A DNA stretch of 11,316 nucleotides, from NCBI GenBank assembly GCA_902772755.1, contig CACYCD010000038.1, forward strand, positions 1 to 11,316, given 5' to 3'. This document shows, one piece after another, positions 1,738 through 9,742 of the stretch. The stretch is from an uncultured Ruminococcus sp. GTDB taxonomy: Bacteria; Bacillota; Clostridia; Oscillospirales; Acutalibacteraceae. The notes under the pieces were generated by a model. The model did no database searches, was not told the origin of the DNA, and worked only from the letters and a program-made list of their open reading frames with translations. The first letter of the stretch is position 1, and each line of letters begins with the position of its first letter. The position numbers and the translations under genes are program-made.

Positions 1738-1766
1738 TTGATAATAATTCTGAAATTTGGTATAAT
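1738..1766 (+). promoter_or_regulatory. Extended -10 promoter of the fabF operon
   Basis: TTGATA (1738-1743), 17-base spacer, then TGGTATAAT with TATAAT at 1761-1766 and the TG of an extended -10 at 1758-1759. This predicts a start near 1773 and a short leader to the ATG at 1798. One mismatch in the -35. Confidence 0.75.
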
Positions 1767-1797
1767 TATATATATTTATACCGAAAGGACTTTTAAA

Positions 1798-3021
1798 ATG
1801 AAAAAAATCGTTGTTACCGGTATGGGTGCGATCACCCCTATCGGCGTTGGTGTTGATGAATATTGGAAAAATCTTCTCGGCGGAAAGAGCGGTACTTGCA
1901 GCATCACTGCATTCGACCCCTCGGAGCTTGCCGTGCAGTTTGCCGGTCAGATAAGGGATTTTGACCCGGCACAGTATATACCAAAGCAGATTTTAAGACA
2001 GACTGACCCGTTTATGCAGTATGCTTATATTGCAGCCGAGGAAGCCTTGAAAATGAGCGGACTCGAAATCGAGCCTACTCGCACAGGCATAGTTATGGGT
2101 ACTGCCCTGAACGGTGTGGCTACGACCGCCTACACTCAGGAGGCACTGTCGGGTATTTCTCACAAAAAGGTGGGTCCCCGTTTCATTCCCAAAATTCTGG
2201 GAAATGTGGCAGCTACTCACATTGCAATTATGCACAATATCCAGGGTCCTGCACTCACGGTGAATACTGCCTGTTCCTCCGGCGGAGATGCGATCTTCAC
2301 GGCGGCTATGCTTCTGCAGGCAGGCAAGGCTGACTCCATCATAGCGGTAGGTGCGGAAAGTGTTCTCTGTCCGCTGGTCATCTATTCCTTGGCTAATGCA
2401 AAAGCTCTCTCACGCAACAACGCAAATCCCGAATCTGCTTCACGTCCGTTTGACGCTTCAAGAGACGGCTTTGTTATCGGTGAGGGAGGCGGAGCTATAA
2501 TTCTCGAAACCGAGGAGCATGCACTCGCTAGAGGTGCAAATATTATCTGTGAGCTGATGGGCTGCGGAAATACCGGAGACGCTCACCACATCACGGCACC
2601 TCACCCCGAGGGAGACGGAGCGATCAGGGCAATGAAGCTCGCAATAGAGGAGGCAGGGATTTCACCCGAGGATATCGGCTACATCAACGCCCACGGAACT
2701 GCCACAAGGAAGGGAGACGTTGTTGAGAGCATAGCCATAAACAGCGTATTCGGCAGTCACAGACCCTACGTTTCTTCCACAAAGGGTGCAACGGGTCATA
2801 TGATGGGTGCAGGCGGTGTTACCGAAACCATAACCTGTATAAAAACTATCATAGAGGGTGTAATACCATACACACTCAATCTGAAAGATGTTGACGAGGA
2901 AATAGATCTCAACCTCGTGAAGGACGCACCAAAAGAGGGAGTGGTAAATTATGCCATGAGCAATTCCCTCGGCTTCGGCGGTCAGAACAGCAGTGTTATC
3001 GTAGGACGCTACAGCGGTTGA
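1798..3021 (+). CDS. fabF: Beta-ketoacyl-ACP synthase II (FabF-type KAS)
   Basis: A 407-residue condensing enzyme that extends an acyl chain on acyl carrier protein by decarboxylating malonyl-ACP; cytoplasmic, fatty-acid type II pathway. All three catalytic residues are present: Cys159 in VNTACSSGGDA, His299 in NAHGTATRKGD and His334 in GATGHMMGAGG. The glycine-rich C-terminal SLGFGGQNSS motif is intact. Length matches FabF (about 410). The frame is open further upstream, but the ATG at 1798 is chosen because it has AAGGA 8 bases before it, starts with the family-typical MKKIVVTGMGAITPIG, and the upstream part lies in the promoter. It is followed after 7 bases by the thioesterase gene. It stands apart from any fabD/fabG/acpP genes in this window, so it may be a paralogue with a special chain or substrate rather than the housekeeping enzyme. 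The family is sure, the exact product is not. Confidence 0.9.
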   Translation: MKKIVVTGMGAITPIGVGVDEYWKNLLGGKSGTCSITAFDPSELAVQFAGQIRDFDPAQYIPKQILRQTDPFMQYAYIAAEEALKMSGLEIEPTRTGIVMGTALNGVATTAYTQEALSGISHKKVGPRFIPKILGNVAATHIAIMHNIQGPALTVNTACSSGGDAIFTAAMLLQAGKADSIIAVGAESVLCPLVIYSLANAKALSRNNANPESASRPFDASRDGFVIGEGGGAIILETEEHALARGANIICELMGCGNTGDAHHITAPHPEGDGAIRAMKLAIEEAGISPEDIGYINAHGTATRKGDVVESIAINSVFGSHRPYVSSTKGATGHMMGAGGVTETITCIKTIIEGVIPYTLNLKDVDEEIDLNLVKDAPKEGVVNYAMSNSLGFGGQNSSVIVGRYSG

Positions 3022-6159: not shown

Positions 6160-6849
6160 ATGGGAGATATCGCTAACGTCATACAGGAAGAAATGGAATG
6201 TGTGGAAGTTTTCAATATTCCCATATTCGGCGGAATACCGATTTATGAATCCGTAGTGGTCACGTGGATCATAATGGGTGTTTTTTTGCTTTTATGTCTG
6301 ATACTCGTAAGGAATCTAAAGGTTGAAAACCCGGGGAGGAAACAGCTGTTGCTGGAATTTTGTGTGGACTGGCTTTACAAGTTTGTCGGCGGAATGGTCG
6401 GCAAGGAGGGAAGCCGTTACGTTCCCTACCTGATATCCGTGCTGATCTACATACGCTTCAGCAATATCATAGGTGTATTCGGCTTTAAGTCGCCTACAAA
6501 GGATCTGAACATCACAATAGCACTTGCTTTGATGAGCATAGTCCTCATAGAGGGTGCGACTCTTTACAAAAAGAAGCCGAAAAAATTCCTCAAGGGCTTT
6601 CTTGAACCCACTCCCGTAATGCTCCCGTTCAATATCCTTGAATTGGGGATCCGACCGCTGTCGCTGTGTATGCGACTTTTCGGTAATGTGCTGGGTGCAT
6701 TCGTTGTAATGACGCTGCTTGAATGCGTTGTTCCGGTGATCGTACCCGTGGCATTCAGTCTGTACTTTGACTTTTTTGACGGACTTATCCAGGCTTATGT
6801 ATTTGTGTTCCTCACCTCCCTGTTTATCAAGGAAGGCTTGGAGGATTAG
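6160..6849 (+). CDS. atpB: F-type ATP synthase subunit a
   Basis: A 229-residue integral membrane stator subunit that forms the two half-channels leading ions to and from the c ring. The essential arginine is Arg172 in SLCMRLFGN, within the family-typical ELGIRPLSL (161-169) helix; the final helix carries Gln211 in LIQAYVFVFLTSLFI. Other marks are RFSNIIGVFGFKSPTKDLN (99-117). About five membrane helices are visible, the first at 32-50. The ATG at 6160 has AAAGGAGG 7 bases upstream; the same frame is open back to a TTG at 6061, but that part holds the promoter. One oddity: after RLFGN the text is VLGAFVV, so the acidic or histidine residue usual a few positions later (as in NMYAGE) is absent. 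No atpI gene precedes it. It is the first gene of the operon. Confidence 0.94.
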   Translation: MGDIANVIQEEMECVEVFNIPIFGGIPIYESVVVTWIIMGVFLLLCLILVRNLKVENPGRKQLLLEFCVDWLYKFVGGMVGKEGSRYVPYLISVLIYIRFSNIIGVFGFKSPTKDLNITIALALMSIVLIEGATLYKKKPKKFLKGFLEPTPVMLPFNILELGIRPLSLCMRLFGNVLGAFVVMTLLECVVPVIVPVAFSLYFDFFDGLIQAYVFVFLTSLFIKEGLED

Positions 6850-6891: not shown

Positions 6892-8730
6892 ATGTTGACT
6901 TTACTTGCTATCGGTGCAGGTATAGCCGTTTTGTCGGGAATCGGTGCCGGTGTAGGCATAGGTCTTGCAACGGCTAAAGCATCTGCTGCAGTGGCAAGAC
7001 AGCCCGAGGCGGACGGCAAGGTTTCAAAGCTGCTGCTTCTTGGTTCGGCTCTTTCGGAGGCTACCGCCATCTACGGCTTTGTTGTGGGACTTCTGCTCAT
7101 AATCCTGGTCAAGCCCGGTGCAAGCCCTGCTATTATGGCTATCGGTGCAGGTGTGGCAGTGTTCACAGGTGCAGGTGCCGGCATAGGAATTGGCACGGCT
7201 ACGGGCAAAGCCTGTGAGTTTGCAGCCAAAAATCCGGAGGCGGACAGCAAAATTTCAAAAGTCCTTCTGTTAGGCTCCGCCCTGTCGGAGGCGACCGCTA
7301 TCTACGGCTTTGTAATAGGTCTGTTGATCATACTGTTGCTGGGCGACAGCGGCGATACTGCGGTAGTTGCCCTGGGTGCAGGTGCAGCGGTGTTTACAGG
7401 TATGGGCGGAGGCATAGGCATAGGTATGGCTACTGCCGGTGCCTGTGAGTCCGTGGCAAAATCTCCGGAGGCGGACGGCAAGATCTCTAAGGTCCTTCTG
7501 CTCGGCTCGGCTCTTGCGGAGGCAACTGCAATATATGGTTTTGTTATAGGTCTGCTCATCATACTTCTTGTGGGCAGCGGAGAATACTCCTACACCCTCG
7601 CACTCGGCGGAGGAATCGCCGTGCTGTCGGGAATGGGTGCAGGTCTGGGCATAGGATATGCCACAAAGAACGCCTGTCTTGCAGTGGCGTATGCTCCCGA
7701 GGCGGACAGCAAGATCTCAAAGCTCCTGCTTCTGGGTTCTGCCCTCTCGGAGGCTACTGCCATCTACGGCTTTGTAGTCGCCCTGCTCATAATTCTTTTG
7801 CTGGACGTGAAAACAGCCGTTGCCACCGTTGCAGTCGGTGCTGGCGTGTCCGTACTGACAGGCATAGGTGCCGGCTTCGGAATAGGCTTTGCCACCTCGA
7901 AAGCCTGTGACTCCGTTGCAAAAGCTCCCGAAACGGACGGAAAAATTTCCAAGCTCCTGCTTTTGGGTTCGGCTCTCTCGGAGGCTACGGCTATCTACGG
8001 CTTCGTGGTAGGTCTGCTGATAATCCTGCTTATGGGCGGAAATTCAAAAGCAGTTTATGAAACTGCCTTCGGTGCGGGTATCGCCGTGCTGACGGGCATA
8101 GGTGCCGGCTTCGGCATAGGTCTTGCCACTGCAAGATCCTGCGAGGCAGTCGGCAGAGTACCCGAGGCGGACGGCAAGATCTCAAAGCTCCTGCTGCTTG
8201 GCTCTGCACTTGCAGAGGCAACTGCGATCTACGGCTTTGTTGTGGGTCTGCTCGTTATCCTCCTGCTTGCATCGGGTGAACATTCCGCTATACTTTCCTT
8301 TGGCTCGGGACTTGCGGTATTTGCAGGTCTGGGAGCAGGTGTGGGAATAGGCTATGCCACATCAAACGCCTGTGCAGCAGTGGCACACAATCCCAAGTCA
8401 GACAGTAAGATATCAAAGCTTCTTTTGCTGGGTTCGGCTCTGTCGGAAGCTACTGCTATCTACGGCTTTGTAGTCGGCTTGCTGGTGCTTCTGCTGTTGG
8501 ATCCCAACAAAGCCAATGCGACCGTGGCTATCGGTGCAGGCATAGCTGTTGTCACCGGCTTGGGTGCAGGCTTCGGCATCGGTGCAGGCTCGGCAAAATC
8601 TTGTACGTCAGTGGCAAGACAGCCACAGGCGGACGGTAAAATTTCAAAGCTGCTGCTCCTCGGCTGTGCCTTGGCAGAGGCAACTGCGATCTATGGCTTT
8701 GTAATAGGTCTGCTGGAAATTTTACTGATG
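6892..8730 (+). repeat. Eight tandem 231-base coding repeats within atpE
   Basis: Units start at 6892, 7135, 7366, 7597, 7828, 8062, 8293 and 8524. Inner units are 231 bases (77 codons), unit 5 is 234, the first has 243 because of its N-terminus and the last 207 without a joint. The most conserved block encodes ISKLLLLGSALSEATAIYGF; third codon positions vary freely between units, so they are old and kept alike by selection on protein. Confidence 0.95.
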
Positions 8731-8733
8731 TAA
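6892..8733 (+). CDS. atpE: F-type ATP synthase c subunit, eight fused hairpins (single-chain rotor)
   Basis: A 613-residue proteolipid; ordinary bacterial c subunits have 70-90 residues and two helices. Eight homologous hairpins follow each other: residues 1-81, 82-158, 159-235, 236-312, 313-390, 391-467, 468-544 and 545-613, giving about 16 membrane helices. Each has a glycine-rich helix 1 (GAG....GxGAGxGIG), a polar loop and a helix 2 with L(S/A)EATAIYGFV. The ion-binding glutamates are 56, 133, 210, 287, 364, 442, 519 and 596; none is missing. Joints are short (about 8-10 residues) on the outer face. Helix 1 has Ile where sodium rings have Gln, and EA where they have ES/ET, so protons are the likely ion. 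The start has AAAGGGAG 7 bases upstream. The frame is uninterrupted and repeats differ at many silent sites, so an assembly error is unlikely. It would form a c8 ring alone or c16 as two chains. An extra Glu609 lies in the last helix. Confidence 0.95.
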   Translation: MLTLLAIGAGIAVLSGIGAGVGIGLATAKASAAVARQPEADGKVSKLLLLGSALSEATAIYGFVVGLLLIILVKPGASPAIMAIGAGVAVFTGAGAGIGIGTATGKACEFAAKNPEADSKISKVLLLGSALSEATAIYGFVIGLLIILLLGDSGDTAVVALGAGAAVFTGMGGGIGIGMATAGACESVAKSPEADGKISKVLLLGSALAEATAIYGFVIGLLIILLVGSGEYSYTLALGGGIAVLSGMGAGLGIGYATKNACLAVAYAPEADSKISKLLLLGSALSEATAIYGFVVALLIILLLDVKTAVATVAVGAGVSVLTGIGAGFGIGFATSKACDSVAKAPETDGKISKLLLLGSALSEATAIYGFVVGLLIILLMGGNSKAVYETAFGAGIAVLTGIGAGFGIGLATARSCEAVGRVPEADGKISKLLLLGSALAEATAIYGFVVGLLVILLLASGEHSAILSFGSGLAVFAGLGAGVGIGYATSNACAAVAHNPKSDSKISKLLLLGSALSEATAIYGFVVGLLVLLLLDPNKANATVAIGAGIAVVTGLGAGFGIGAGSAKSCTSVARQPQADGKISKLLLLGCALAEATAIYGFVIGLLEILLM

Positions 8734-8746
8734 GGAGGATATTAAC

Positions 8747-9742
8747 GTGCTGAAAATTGAATTTTGGGATATATTATTTACCGTTATAAATTTGCTTATC
8801 TTTTATCTGCTGATCAAAAAATTCCTCTTAAAGCCGATAAAGAAGATCATAGACGCCCGTCAGCAGATGGTGCAGGCTGATTTTGACGTAGCTGCCAAAT
8901 CGAAGGAGGAGGCAGAACAGCTCAAAAACGAGTATGAGGAAAATCTCAGGCACGCTGAGGCTGATGCGGAGGAGATCACTCAGAAGGCACACAAAAAAGC
9001 CGAGCGTCAGAAGGAAAAGATCATCAGCTCCGCTTCGGAGGAGGCAAAGCAGATCGTTGCAAATGCTCAAAAAACCGCACAGCAGGAGTACGATCAGACT
9101 ATGTCACGTCTTGAAAGCGACATAGCTTCGCTTGCCATGGAAGCTGCCGAAAAGGTCATCAAGGGAAACTCGGCAGAAAGCGGTACTGCCGAATATGACG
9201 AATTTTTGAAGGAAGTCAATGCAGATACTCAAAAAAAAAAATCTGACGCAGAAGCTGTGACCGAATCAGACGGCAGACAGCTTGGCGTGAGTGAGGAGTC
9301 TGTTTTAAATGCGGAACAGGCACTTGAAAACAGCCCCGAGCTTGCACGGGTGCTTGACAGTCCTGTTGTTTCTTATCAGGAAAAATGTGAGGTCATTGAC
9401 AAGATATTTGACGATGACATAAAAACGTTTATAAAAGTAGTATGCAAAAACGAAAAAGCTTCCGAGCTGAAAAGTATGTTTGCCGAGTACAAGCGATACA
9501 GGGTATCAGGTGACGGCATTGCAGAGGCAGAGCTGTTCTATACGGTTATGCCGACTGATGAACAGCAGGAAGGAATTAAGAGCTTTGTCAAGAACAAAAC
9601 AGGCGTTCATACCGTGAACCTGAAGCTCATTGAAAAGCCGGAGCTTGAAGGTGGCTTTGTGCTGAAGATCGGTGATCTGGAATATGACAGAAGCTACAAG
9701 GGCAGGCTTGACGCTCTGAGACAAAGATTGGTACGGAGGTAA
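8747..9742 (+). CDS. atpFH: Fused ATP synthase stator subunit b-delta
   Basis: A 331-residue protein joining two stator subunits. Residues about 8-28 are the single membrane helix of b (FWDILFTVINLLIFYLLIKKF), then the typical FLLKPIKKIIDAR and a long charged coiled coil to about 150, ending YDEFLKEV as free b subunits do. Residues about 181-331 are delta: ELARVLDSPVVSYQEKCEVIDKIF, then the C-terminal domain with KPELEGGFVLKIGD and GRLDALRQRL. The first helix of ordinary delta (YA.AL...A) is not visible. The start is GTG, with AAGGAGGA overlapping the atpE stop. The join holds an A11 run (9231-9241). Mycobacteria have a b-delta fusion too, but with a separate b; none is seen here. If the A run were 10 long, the genes would be atpF (170 residues) and atpH from GTG 9257. 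Confidence 0.85.
   Translation: MLKIEFWDILFTVINLLIFYLLIKKFLLKPIKKIIDARQQMVQADFDVAAKSKEEAEQLKNEYEENLRHAEADAEEITQKAHKKAERQKEKIISSASEEAKQIVANAQKTAQQEYDQTMSRLESDIASLAMEAAEKVIKGNSAESGTAEYDEFLKEVNADTQKKKSDAEAVTESDGRQLGVSEESVLNAEQALENSPELARVLDSPVVSYQEKCEVIDKIFDDDIKTFIKVVCKNEKASELKSMFAEYKRYRVSGDGIAEAELFYTVMPTDEQQEGIKSFVKNKTGVHTVNLKLIEKPELEGGFVLKIGDLEYDRSYKGRLDALRQRLVRR
9231..9283 (+). promoter_or_regulatory. Candidate slippage/frameshift signal at the b-delta junction
   Basis: A run of eleven A (9231-9241), read as Q-K-K-K in the fused frame. One step back, or one extra A in the message, gives Ile then TGA (9244-9246), a b subunit of 166 residues. One step forward, or one A fewer, gives five residues then TGA (9258-9260), a b of 170. 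A stem-loop starts 10 bases after the run: AAGCTGT (9252-9258) with ACAGCTT (9277-9283), plus an inner CCG/CGG pair (9261-9263, 9271-9273). An SD-like AAGGA (9209-9213) lies upstream. Elements are seen; function is inferred. Confidence 0.55.

Follow-up and report, generated by a model that had tools for sequence, protein, structure and literature searches.

An eight-hairpin c subunit in an F-type ATP synthase operon of an uncultured Ruminococcus and its possible use as a whole rotor ring

What determines the number of c subunits in the rotor ring of ATP synthases, and hence the number of protons used per ATP (H+/ATP), is a long-standing question in bioenergetics. This question is raised in an unusual form by the gene for the F-type c subunit (atpE) in a stretch of DNA from an uncultured Ruminococcus species, in which eight c hairpins are encoded in one polypeptide. 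The stretch, referred to below as the window, is the whole of contig C38 (11,316 bases) in a 349-contig assembly (genome G000) that is 75.6% complete. A preliminary description of the window proposed that one such polypeptide may constitute an entire rotor ring. The reading that we prefer, and that on balance we consider slightly favoured, is that atpE encodes the sole c subunit of an H+-coupled F-type ATPase, that its chain is used uncut, and that most likely one chain forms each c8 ring.

The eight-hairpin gene and its operon

The protein encoded by atpE matched the family PF00137 with an E value of 5.9e-110 over its whole length, and this match was made up of eight separate matches, all of them above the curated cut-off. 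Its score against TIGR01260 was 275.8 bits, compared with a cut-off of 43.95. Each of the eight units is a two-helix hairpin with a glycine-rich first helix and a membrane carboxylate in helix 2, and these glutamates, at residues 56, 133, 210, 287, 364, 442, 519, and 596, are separated by 77, 77, 77, 77, 78, 77, and 77 residues. The protein thus differs from the classical form of the F-type c subunit, with one hairpin per polypeptide, in having eight, and both the count of complete hairpins in one frame and the glutamate spacing of 77 (once 78) given in the preliminary description were borne out exactly. The gene and its hairpins, each of which corresponds to a PF00137 match, are as follows.

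6892..8733, + strand: atpE, eight-hairpin fused c subunit, 613 amino acids (aa), start ATG; from the open reading frame (ORF), the PF00137 matches and the Glu positions
6910..7098, + strand: hairpin 1, loop RQP, Glu56 codon 7057-7059
7141..7329, + strand: hairpin 2, loop KNP, Glu133 codon 7288-7290
7372..7560, + strand: hairpin 3, loop KSP, Glu210 codon 7519-7521
7603..7791, + strand: hairpin 4, loop YAP, Glu287 codon 7750-7752
7834..8022, + strand: hairpin 5, loop KAP, Glu364 codon 7981-7983
8068..8253, + strand: hairpin 6, loop RVP, Glu442 codon 8215-8217
8299..8484, + strand: hairpin 7, loop HNP, Glu519 codon 8446-8448
8530..8715, + strand: hairpin 8, loop RQP, Glu596 codon 8677-8679

By family matches of its neighbours, the gene lies between those for subunits a and b of an F-type operon. 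A V-type-like pump with fewer carboxylates, as in the duplicated K subunit of V-type enzymes, was also considered and was rejected, as all eight glutamates are present.

As the window comes from a draft assembly and is a single contig, an assembly artefact or a decaying gene has to be weighed. At the DNA level the gene contains eight repeats of 218 nucleotides (nt) each, at a spacing of 231 (once 234), which are only 64-73% identical to the reference copy. No exact match shared by two hairpins is longer than 22 nt, and because of this a short-read assembly error in the number of units is very unlikely. Moreover, besides the cluster to which the window protein belongs (P0001), four further clusters of eight-hairpin proteins (P0002-P0005) exist on contigs of up to 126 kb, which are 78-82% identical to the window protein; P0004 is identical to the protein of genome G021, which belongs to the same genus, is 99% complete, and encodes an eight-hairpin protein 79% identical to that of the window. 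In a comparison with the G021 gene over 611 codons, nonsynonymous divergence (pN) was 0.146 and synonymous divergence (pS) was 0.74 (saturated), and pN was between 0.09 and 0.17 in each of the eight hairpins, being lowest in helix 2 (0.073) and highest in the loops and linkers (0.25). The gene is under purifying selection, and we regard an artefact or decay as scarcely conceivable.

The existence of another c gene was examined by a PF00137 profile search that covered 12 genomes of the genus. No second PF00137 gene was found in any of the six genomes with four, five, or eight fused hairpins, two of which, G021 and G059, have a completeness of 99% each. The short second atpE that the preliminary description had named as a possible source of the actual ring was therefore seen neither in the window's own genome, at its 75.6% completeness, nor in the 99% complete eight-hairpin relative. 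The four genomes with a two-hairpin c carry three additional hairpins elsewhere, and three PF00137 hairpins and one were found in genomes G060 and G062, respectively. The fused gene thus appears to be the sole rotor subunit of the cell, and, within the part of G000 that is assembled, the two marks of a single-chain rotor, a carboxylate in every hairpin and no other c gene found, are both seen.

The hairpins of the octamers are also distinguished from each other by the residues of the loop that faces F1. Each of the five octamers has the sequence RQP in this loop at both terminal hairpins, and not one of the 30 inner hairpins has it. Similarly, a Tyr in the loop of hairpin 4 and a His in that of hairpin 7 are fixed in 5/5 octamers and are absent from the remaining 35 hairpins; there is no private loop residue at positions 3, 5, 6, and 8. 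RQP was likewise found at both ends of the six four-hairpin and two five-hairpin proteins that were compared. Loops of the RQP type contact the gamma and epsilon subunits, as known from work on Escherichia coli. Since these residues have stayed with their positions despite saturated synonymous divergence, cutting and shuffling of the hairpins is hard to reconcile with the data, and the pattern suggests that the ring is built from uncut chains whose hairpin order is fixed, with a defined seam between the first and last hairpins.

The other genes of the operon that are present in the window are listed below.

6160..6849, + strand: atpB, F-type subunit a, 229 aa; ATG at 6160 after GGAGG, PF00119 E 2.2e-41 (scan from 6154), NF004486 above cut-off; its translation carries MRLFGN with its Arg
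8747..9742, + strand: atpF-atpH, b and delta as one frame, 331 aa; PF00430 and PF00213
9749..11254, + strand: atpA, subunit alpha, 501 aa; TIGR00962 above cut-off

In the relatives G021 and G059 the order a-c-b-delta-alpha is followed by gamma, beta, and epsilon frames, of which beta and epsilon were identified by eye and beta also through its match to the paralogous alpha. A single gamma gene is present in each of the six fused genomes, that of G000 being on a different contig, and the alpha subunits of five near relatives are 82-86% identical to that of the window. The operon, which had been described as otherwise ordinary, is indeed of the F-type, but b and delta, which the relatives examined carry as two genes in different frames, here form a single frame. 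The frame spans a run of 11 A residues at 9231-9241 and the N-terminus of delta is not recognisable in it; a genuine fusion, a slippage site, or an error in the number of bases may lie behind it.

It had also been suggested that a fused c gene does not need the high expression that separate subunits require. In all six fused operons, c indeed has weaker Shine-Dalgarno pairing at its start (-7.7 to -9.0 kcal/mol) than either a (-11.8 to -12.3) or alpha (-10.6 to -10.8). However, c is hardly weaker here than in single-hairpin loci, and the suggestion gains little from the comparison: for ten such loci nine values were obtained, comprising seven of -8.9, one of -13.0, and one of +0.2 (surely a wrong start), and at three two-hairpin loci the value was -8.2. 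For a, the starts used in the single-hairpin loci came from automatic selection, and several look wrong.

A family with variable hairpin number and its history

Searches with the window protein and with a four-hairpin protein scored the 8000 candidates sharing the most words with each query, and the counts obtained are lower bounds. The window protein matched at least 20 proteins, including the five clusters with eight hairpins, one with seven (P0006), and three with five (P0007-P0009), of which P0007 has 160 member sequences; the remaining 11 of the 20 were multi-hairpin proteins, either archaeal-type or more distant, together with chimeric records. The four-hairpin query matched at least 77 proteins, adding 14 four-hairpin and 5 three-hairpin clusters. 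The family of the window thus comprises at least 28 clusters (5 with eight, 1 with seven, 3 with five, 14 with four, and 5 with three hairpins), where the 14 include P0032, an apparent five-hairpin protein without its start. In 27 of the 28 a glutamate is present in every hairpin, and the exception, P0009, has a gap at one position.

Some members of the family show further peculiarities. In the four-hairpin c subunits of genome G097 (L084, 7989-8993), P0027, and P0028, the first outer linker is lengthened by a 25-residue insert, giving a Glu spacing of 102. In P0006 (seven hairpins), P0022, P0029, and P0036 (four), and P0033, P0035, and P0037-P0039 (three), whole hairpins are missing in comparison with a very similar longer protein, and the joins fall inside conserved helices, pointing to intragenic recombination or assembly joins. 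As several of these shortened variants are on short contigs and possibly are assembly joins, they were set aside as proof of living variation.

Within the genus, 50 of 161 genomes contained a match to the window protein at an E value of 0.001, and 111 were without one. Eight hairpins are present in G000 and G021, five in G059, which is a single contig, and four in G100, G103, and G097. Two-hairpin F-type c subunits of 145 aa, with both glutamates present, were found in G164 (L079), G168 (L080), G087 (L081), and G176 (L082), and 40 more matches were weak (E 2e-10 or weaker) and were left unclassified. Among 394 genomes of the order, 14 matched at an E value of 1e-20, and more than two hairpins were seen solely in the window's own genome; the other five fused genomes were absent from these matches, presumably being outside the sample. 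One of the 14, G361 (locus L087), carries two separate single-hairpin atpE genes in tandem (1495-1716 and 1750-1971, minus strand) between a and b, whose proteins differ at one residue. It is plausible that such a pair represents the precursor state of a fusion.

The relationships of the operons were examined in a midpoint-rooted tree of 17 rows based upon a, b, delta, and alpha, from which L034, L036, L039, L046, L047, and L087 were left out; this tree and the hairpin tree described below both left out the single-hairpin genes from the window's own order. In the operon tree the six fused operons formed one clade (100/99), within which the two eight-hairpin operons paired (98/95) and the four- and five-hairpin operons grouped together (94/92). 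Eight single-hairpin operons formed a neighbouring group, and the two-hairpin genes, three of the four being used, branched apart from both. The two-hairpin F-type c subunits of the genus are thus apparently the product of a separate, independent fusion. A tree based upon alpha alone did not resolve the fused group.

The individual hairpins are in large part comparable by position. When the window protein was compared with the four other octamers, the best whole-hairpin match was at the identical position in 29 of 32 comparisons (P0002 8/8, P0003 7/8, G021 6/8, P0005 8/8). In a tree of 68 single hairpins, which is based upon 71 columns and hence contains many weak forks, seven of the eight octamer positions each occupied one side of a branch, with support of 0, 30, 86, 88, 77, 89, and 95. 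Position 8 joined the last hairpin of the four- and five-hairpin proteins (80), positions 4 and 7 were sisters (91), and hairpin 1 of the octamers and that of the four- and five-hairpin proteins were at the base. The octamer hairpins therefore appear to be largely orthologous by position. Additionally, the outer linkers, compared by eye, follow a period of three, being alike after hairpins 1, 4, and 7, after 2 and 5, and after 3 and 6. This period suggests that a block of three hairpins was duplicated, and such an event probably forms part of the history of the family, which would have grown out of fused single hairpins through unequal recombination.

Ring composition, ion coupling and direction of work

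If the chain is used uncut, which from its sequence we consider very likely, it would thread the membrane as 16 helices with both ends outside, the hairpins would stand in the ring in a fixed order, and the ring size would be a multiple of eight. The point made in the preliminary description, that fusion fixes the protomers, holds to this extent: if the protein is not cut, the ring must consist of complete chains. Among the uncut cases, we consider it somewhat more likely than not that a single chain by itself forms a closed c8 ring, in which hairpin 8 would lie beside hairpin 1 and 8 H+ would be carried per turn, or 8/3 H+ per ATP. A ring of one whole chain is possible because 8 falls inside the range of ring sizes, 8-17, that is cited in PMC8809890. 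Since in the octamers the seam hairpins alone keep the canonical RQP, we propose that the foot formed by gamma and epsilon would dock at the 8/1 seam in a single fixed register. A fuller model, in which the one-chain c8 rotor is genetically indexed, with hairpins that are not interchangeable, docking of gamma/epsilon at the seam only, relatives whose ring size tracks their hairpin number (4 or 5 versus 8), and an H+/ATP ratio that evolves by gain or loss of whole units, is put forward tentatively and is in our view rather doubtful as a whole.

The ion that is coupled can be judged from the binding site. In F-type c subunits the Na+ ligands include Gln/Glu32 and Ser66 (PMC3692424). When hairpin 1 was aligned to 1yce and 3zk1 (HMMER), an Ile was found at the position of Gln/Glu32 and an Ala at that of Ser66, and Thr67 and Tyr70 were kept. 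The same residues are present in all eight hairpins, in hairpin 1 by the alignment and in the other seven by equal offsets. A Na+-coupled enzyme was therefore rejected as the default, and because two Na+ ligands are lost throughout, H+ coupling is expected and is our default reading.

With regard to the direction in which the enzyme works, the search for redox pumps covered the Rnf and complex-I/Ech-like families. The complex-I/Ech/Mrp-like family PF00361 was not found in any of the six fused genomes searched; PF02508 (Rnf/Nqr) is present in four of these, and none was found in the near-complete G021 and G059. All six genomes contain matches to a membrane pyrophosphatase. Because neither pump family was found in the two near-complete relatives, the F-type enzyme may, in the group to which the window organism belongs, run largely as an ATP-driven proton pump, in which case a small ring would give the highest proton-motive force per ATP. 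Pumping would be the main task of this enzyme in a fermenter that has no redox-driven pump. The upper limit of this force, computed at 50 kJ/mol, is 194 mV for c8 and 97 mV for c16.

Several observations tell against the picture drawn above. Outside the octamers the loss of RQP from inner hairpins is not general, four of the six four-hairpin proteins having this loop at hairpin 3 as well, and RQP at both ends may partly be an ancestral retention. In the hairpin tree, position 3 of the octamers splits and needs two changes, and positions 1 and 2 have nil or weak support. As to proton pumping, the three four-hairpin genomes have two Rnf-family matches each, G000 itself, incomplete as it is, has a partial match to PF02508, and no search was made for other ion pumps such as decarboxylases. 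With respect to ring size, the smallest bacterial F-type ring known to us is c9, and we know of c8 solely from animal mitochondria. The five- or seven-hairpin relatives and the octamer share no ring size below 40, so that the size of the ring would have to change between close relatives. The best matches of atpE among solved structures are 4bem, 1yce, and 3zk1, which we take to be the enzymes of Acetobacterium woodii, Ilyobacter tartaricus, and Fusobacterium nucleatum. The rings of these best-matching enzymes have 11 hairpins (PMC3692424), a number that is impossible for an uncut eight-hairpin chain.

The alternatives differ in how many chains, or which parts of them, enter the ring. With two chains per ring the rotor would be c16, with two seams and 16/3 H+/ATP; here fusion would halve the complexity of assembly, and the large ring would suit ATP synthesis from a weak gradient. 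Sixteen also lies inside the range of 8-17 (PMC8809890), the glycine-rich first helix of every hairpin is in keeping with it, and the membrane pyrophosphatase of the six genomes could feed a modest gradient for synthesis. On the other side, no Rnf or complex-I-like pump was found in the two near-complete relatives and 16 hairpins come close to the largest known ring (17), although neither point is decisive; we consider a c16 rotor rather unlikely. An ordinary ring of any size could result if the chain were a precursor from which single hairpins are released by cleavage of the outer linkers. Loops and linkers do change faster than helix 2, and one four-hairpin branch has the 25-residue linker insert, but a common linker motif was not found by eye, the Glu-to-Glu spacing is held to 76-78 across the five octamers, and position-specific loop residues are unexpected in free hairpins, all of which makes cleavage improbable.

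Still less probable is a ring from which some hairpins are left out, or one that also takes in a further c subunit not seen here, comparable to the mixed ring of A. woodii. In its favour, the best match among solved structures is the two-hairpin c1 of 4bem, and the nearest solved rings have 11 hairpins (PMC3692424); it is opposed by the lack of a second PF00137 gene in the six fused genomes, two of them 99% complete, and by the presence of all eight glutamates, with every hairpin constrained.

If the chains are used whole, five and eight hairpins give different rings, and ring size therefore differs between close relatives and is predictable from the gene, so that the number of protons per ATP may be set directly by the length of one gene. 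The diverged, position-conserved hairpins would further provide a natural handle on the question whether a rotor ring can be asymmetric and bind the central stalk at one fixed place, and such a handle is, to our knowledge, which is not based on an exhaustive search, new.

Comparison with known fused c subunits

In both the hairpin tree and the operon tree, the single-hairpin rows closest to the family of the window are F-type c subunits that come mostly from Lachnospiraceae (L033-L045). Most of them share with the window family the EATAIYGF motif in helix 2, and the loci L035, L038, and L040 have the same order a-c-b-delta-alpha. They differ from the window family in having one hairpin per gene, with an RQP loop in all nine of those displayed.

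In bacteria, chains of four to six fused hairpins are not uncommon. A search with a six-hairpin query (P0010, 27% identical to the window protein) gave 373 proteins, and the 120 of them that are listed comprise 60 with four, 47 with five, and 13 with six hairpins, and none with eight. In 112 of the 120 a Gln replaces at least one of the glutamates, and in 8 every Glu is present, as in the window. The set (P0010, P0094-P0212) is bacterial and, by name and sequence, F-type, several of its members being named 'ATP synthase F0 subunit C'; the names include Bipolaricaulota, Desulfobacterales, Desulfarculaceae, Desulfatibacillum (e.g., P0176 from Desulfatibacillum aliphaticivorans), and Gracilibacteria. 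The octamer, which had been called remarkable, remains so for its number of units, since none of the 120 reaches eight, but not for being a bacterial fusion with more than two hairpins. Overall, 159 of the 212 proteins collected have at least three hairpins, and the commonest patterns of the carboxylate position are EQQE (38), EQQQE (22), EQQQQ (20), EEEE (17, of which 14 are from the window's family), EQEE (10), and EQQQQQ (10). If the Gln-bearing proteins among P0100-P0212 (EQQE, EQQQE, EQQQQ) are the sole c genes of their cells, each turn would carry far fewer H+ than there are hairpins. Two other kinds were noted: P0043 (281 aa) is a three-hairpin c with one Glu (EQQ), whose helix-1 motif resembles that of Na+ enzymes, and P0044 and P0180, named Candidatus Gracilibacteria, are four- and six-hairpin c subunits with all Glu present.

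Longer chains are found in the archaeal-type proteins P0011-P0015, which have 8 (four proteins) or 11 (P0011) hairpins per chain and, like the window protein, retain every Glu. They are of V/A-type sequence, however, with 28-30% identity to it; P0013 is named Promethearchaeota and the others are alike. The 13-hairpin proteolipid of Methanopyrus kandleri is likewise a single many-hairpin protein with ion ligands in each hairpin (PMC2359735). It belongs to a V/A-type archaeal enzyme and has the full Na+ ligands, whereas the window protein is part of a bacterial F-type operon, and thus not of an A-type archaeal enzyme, has eight hairpins, and has lost two of these ligands.

Among bacterial F-type rings with a fused c, the c1 subunit in 4bem (chain J), presumably that of Acetobacterium woodii, has two hairpins, the second of which carries by alignment a Gln in place of Glu, and by the chain counts of 4bem it forms a mixed ring with nine single c subunits. 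The enzyme of A. woodii is Na+-coupled (PMC3692424), unlike the H+ coupling that is expected for that of the window. For natural bacterial F-type c subunits with more than two hairpins, no description was found in the openly licensed literature, as judged mostly by the opening lines of abstracts.

A further parallel is provided by an engineered protein. In Bacillus PS3, Mitome et al. joined ten c subunits into one chain, so that a whole F-type ring consists of a single polypeptide, and this c10 fusion was active in both proton-coupled hydrolysis and synthesis (PMC8809890). It is man-made, with Gly-Ser-Ala-Gly linkers, whereas the protein of the window is natural and is composed of eight diverged, position-specific hairpins; the latter and its relatives with four, five, or eight fused hairpins are seemingly the natural counterpart of this hand-made rotor. 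The window family is set apart by a hairpin number of up to eight in an F-type operon, a Glu in every hairpin, the fused gene as the only c gene found, and a series of unit numbers within one genus.

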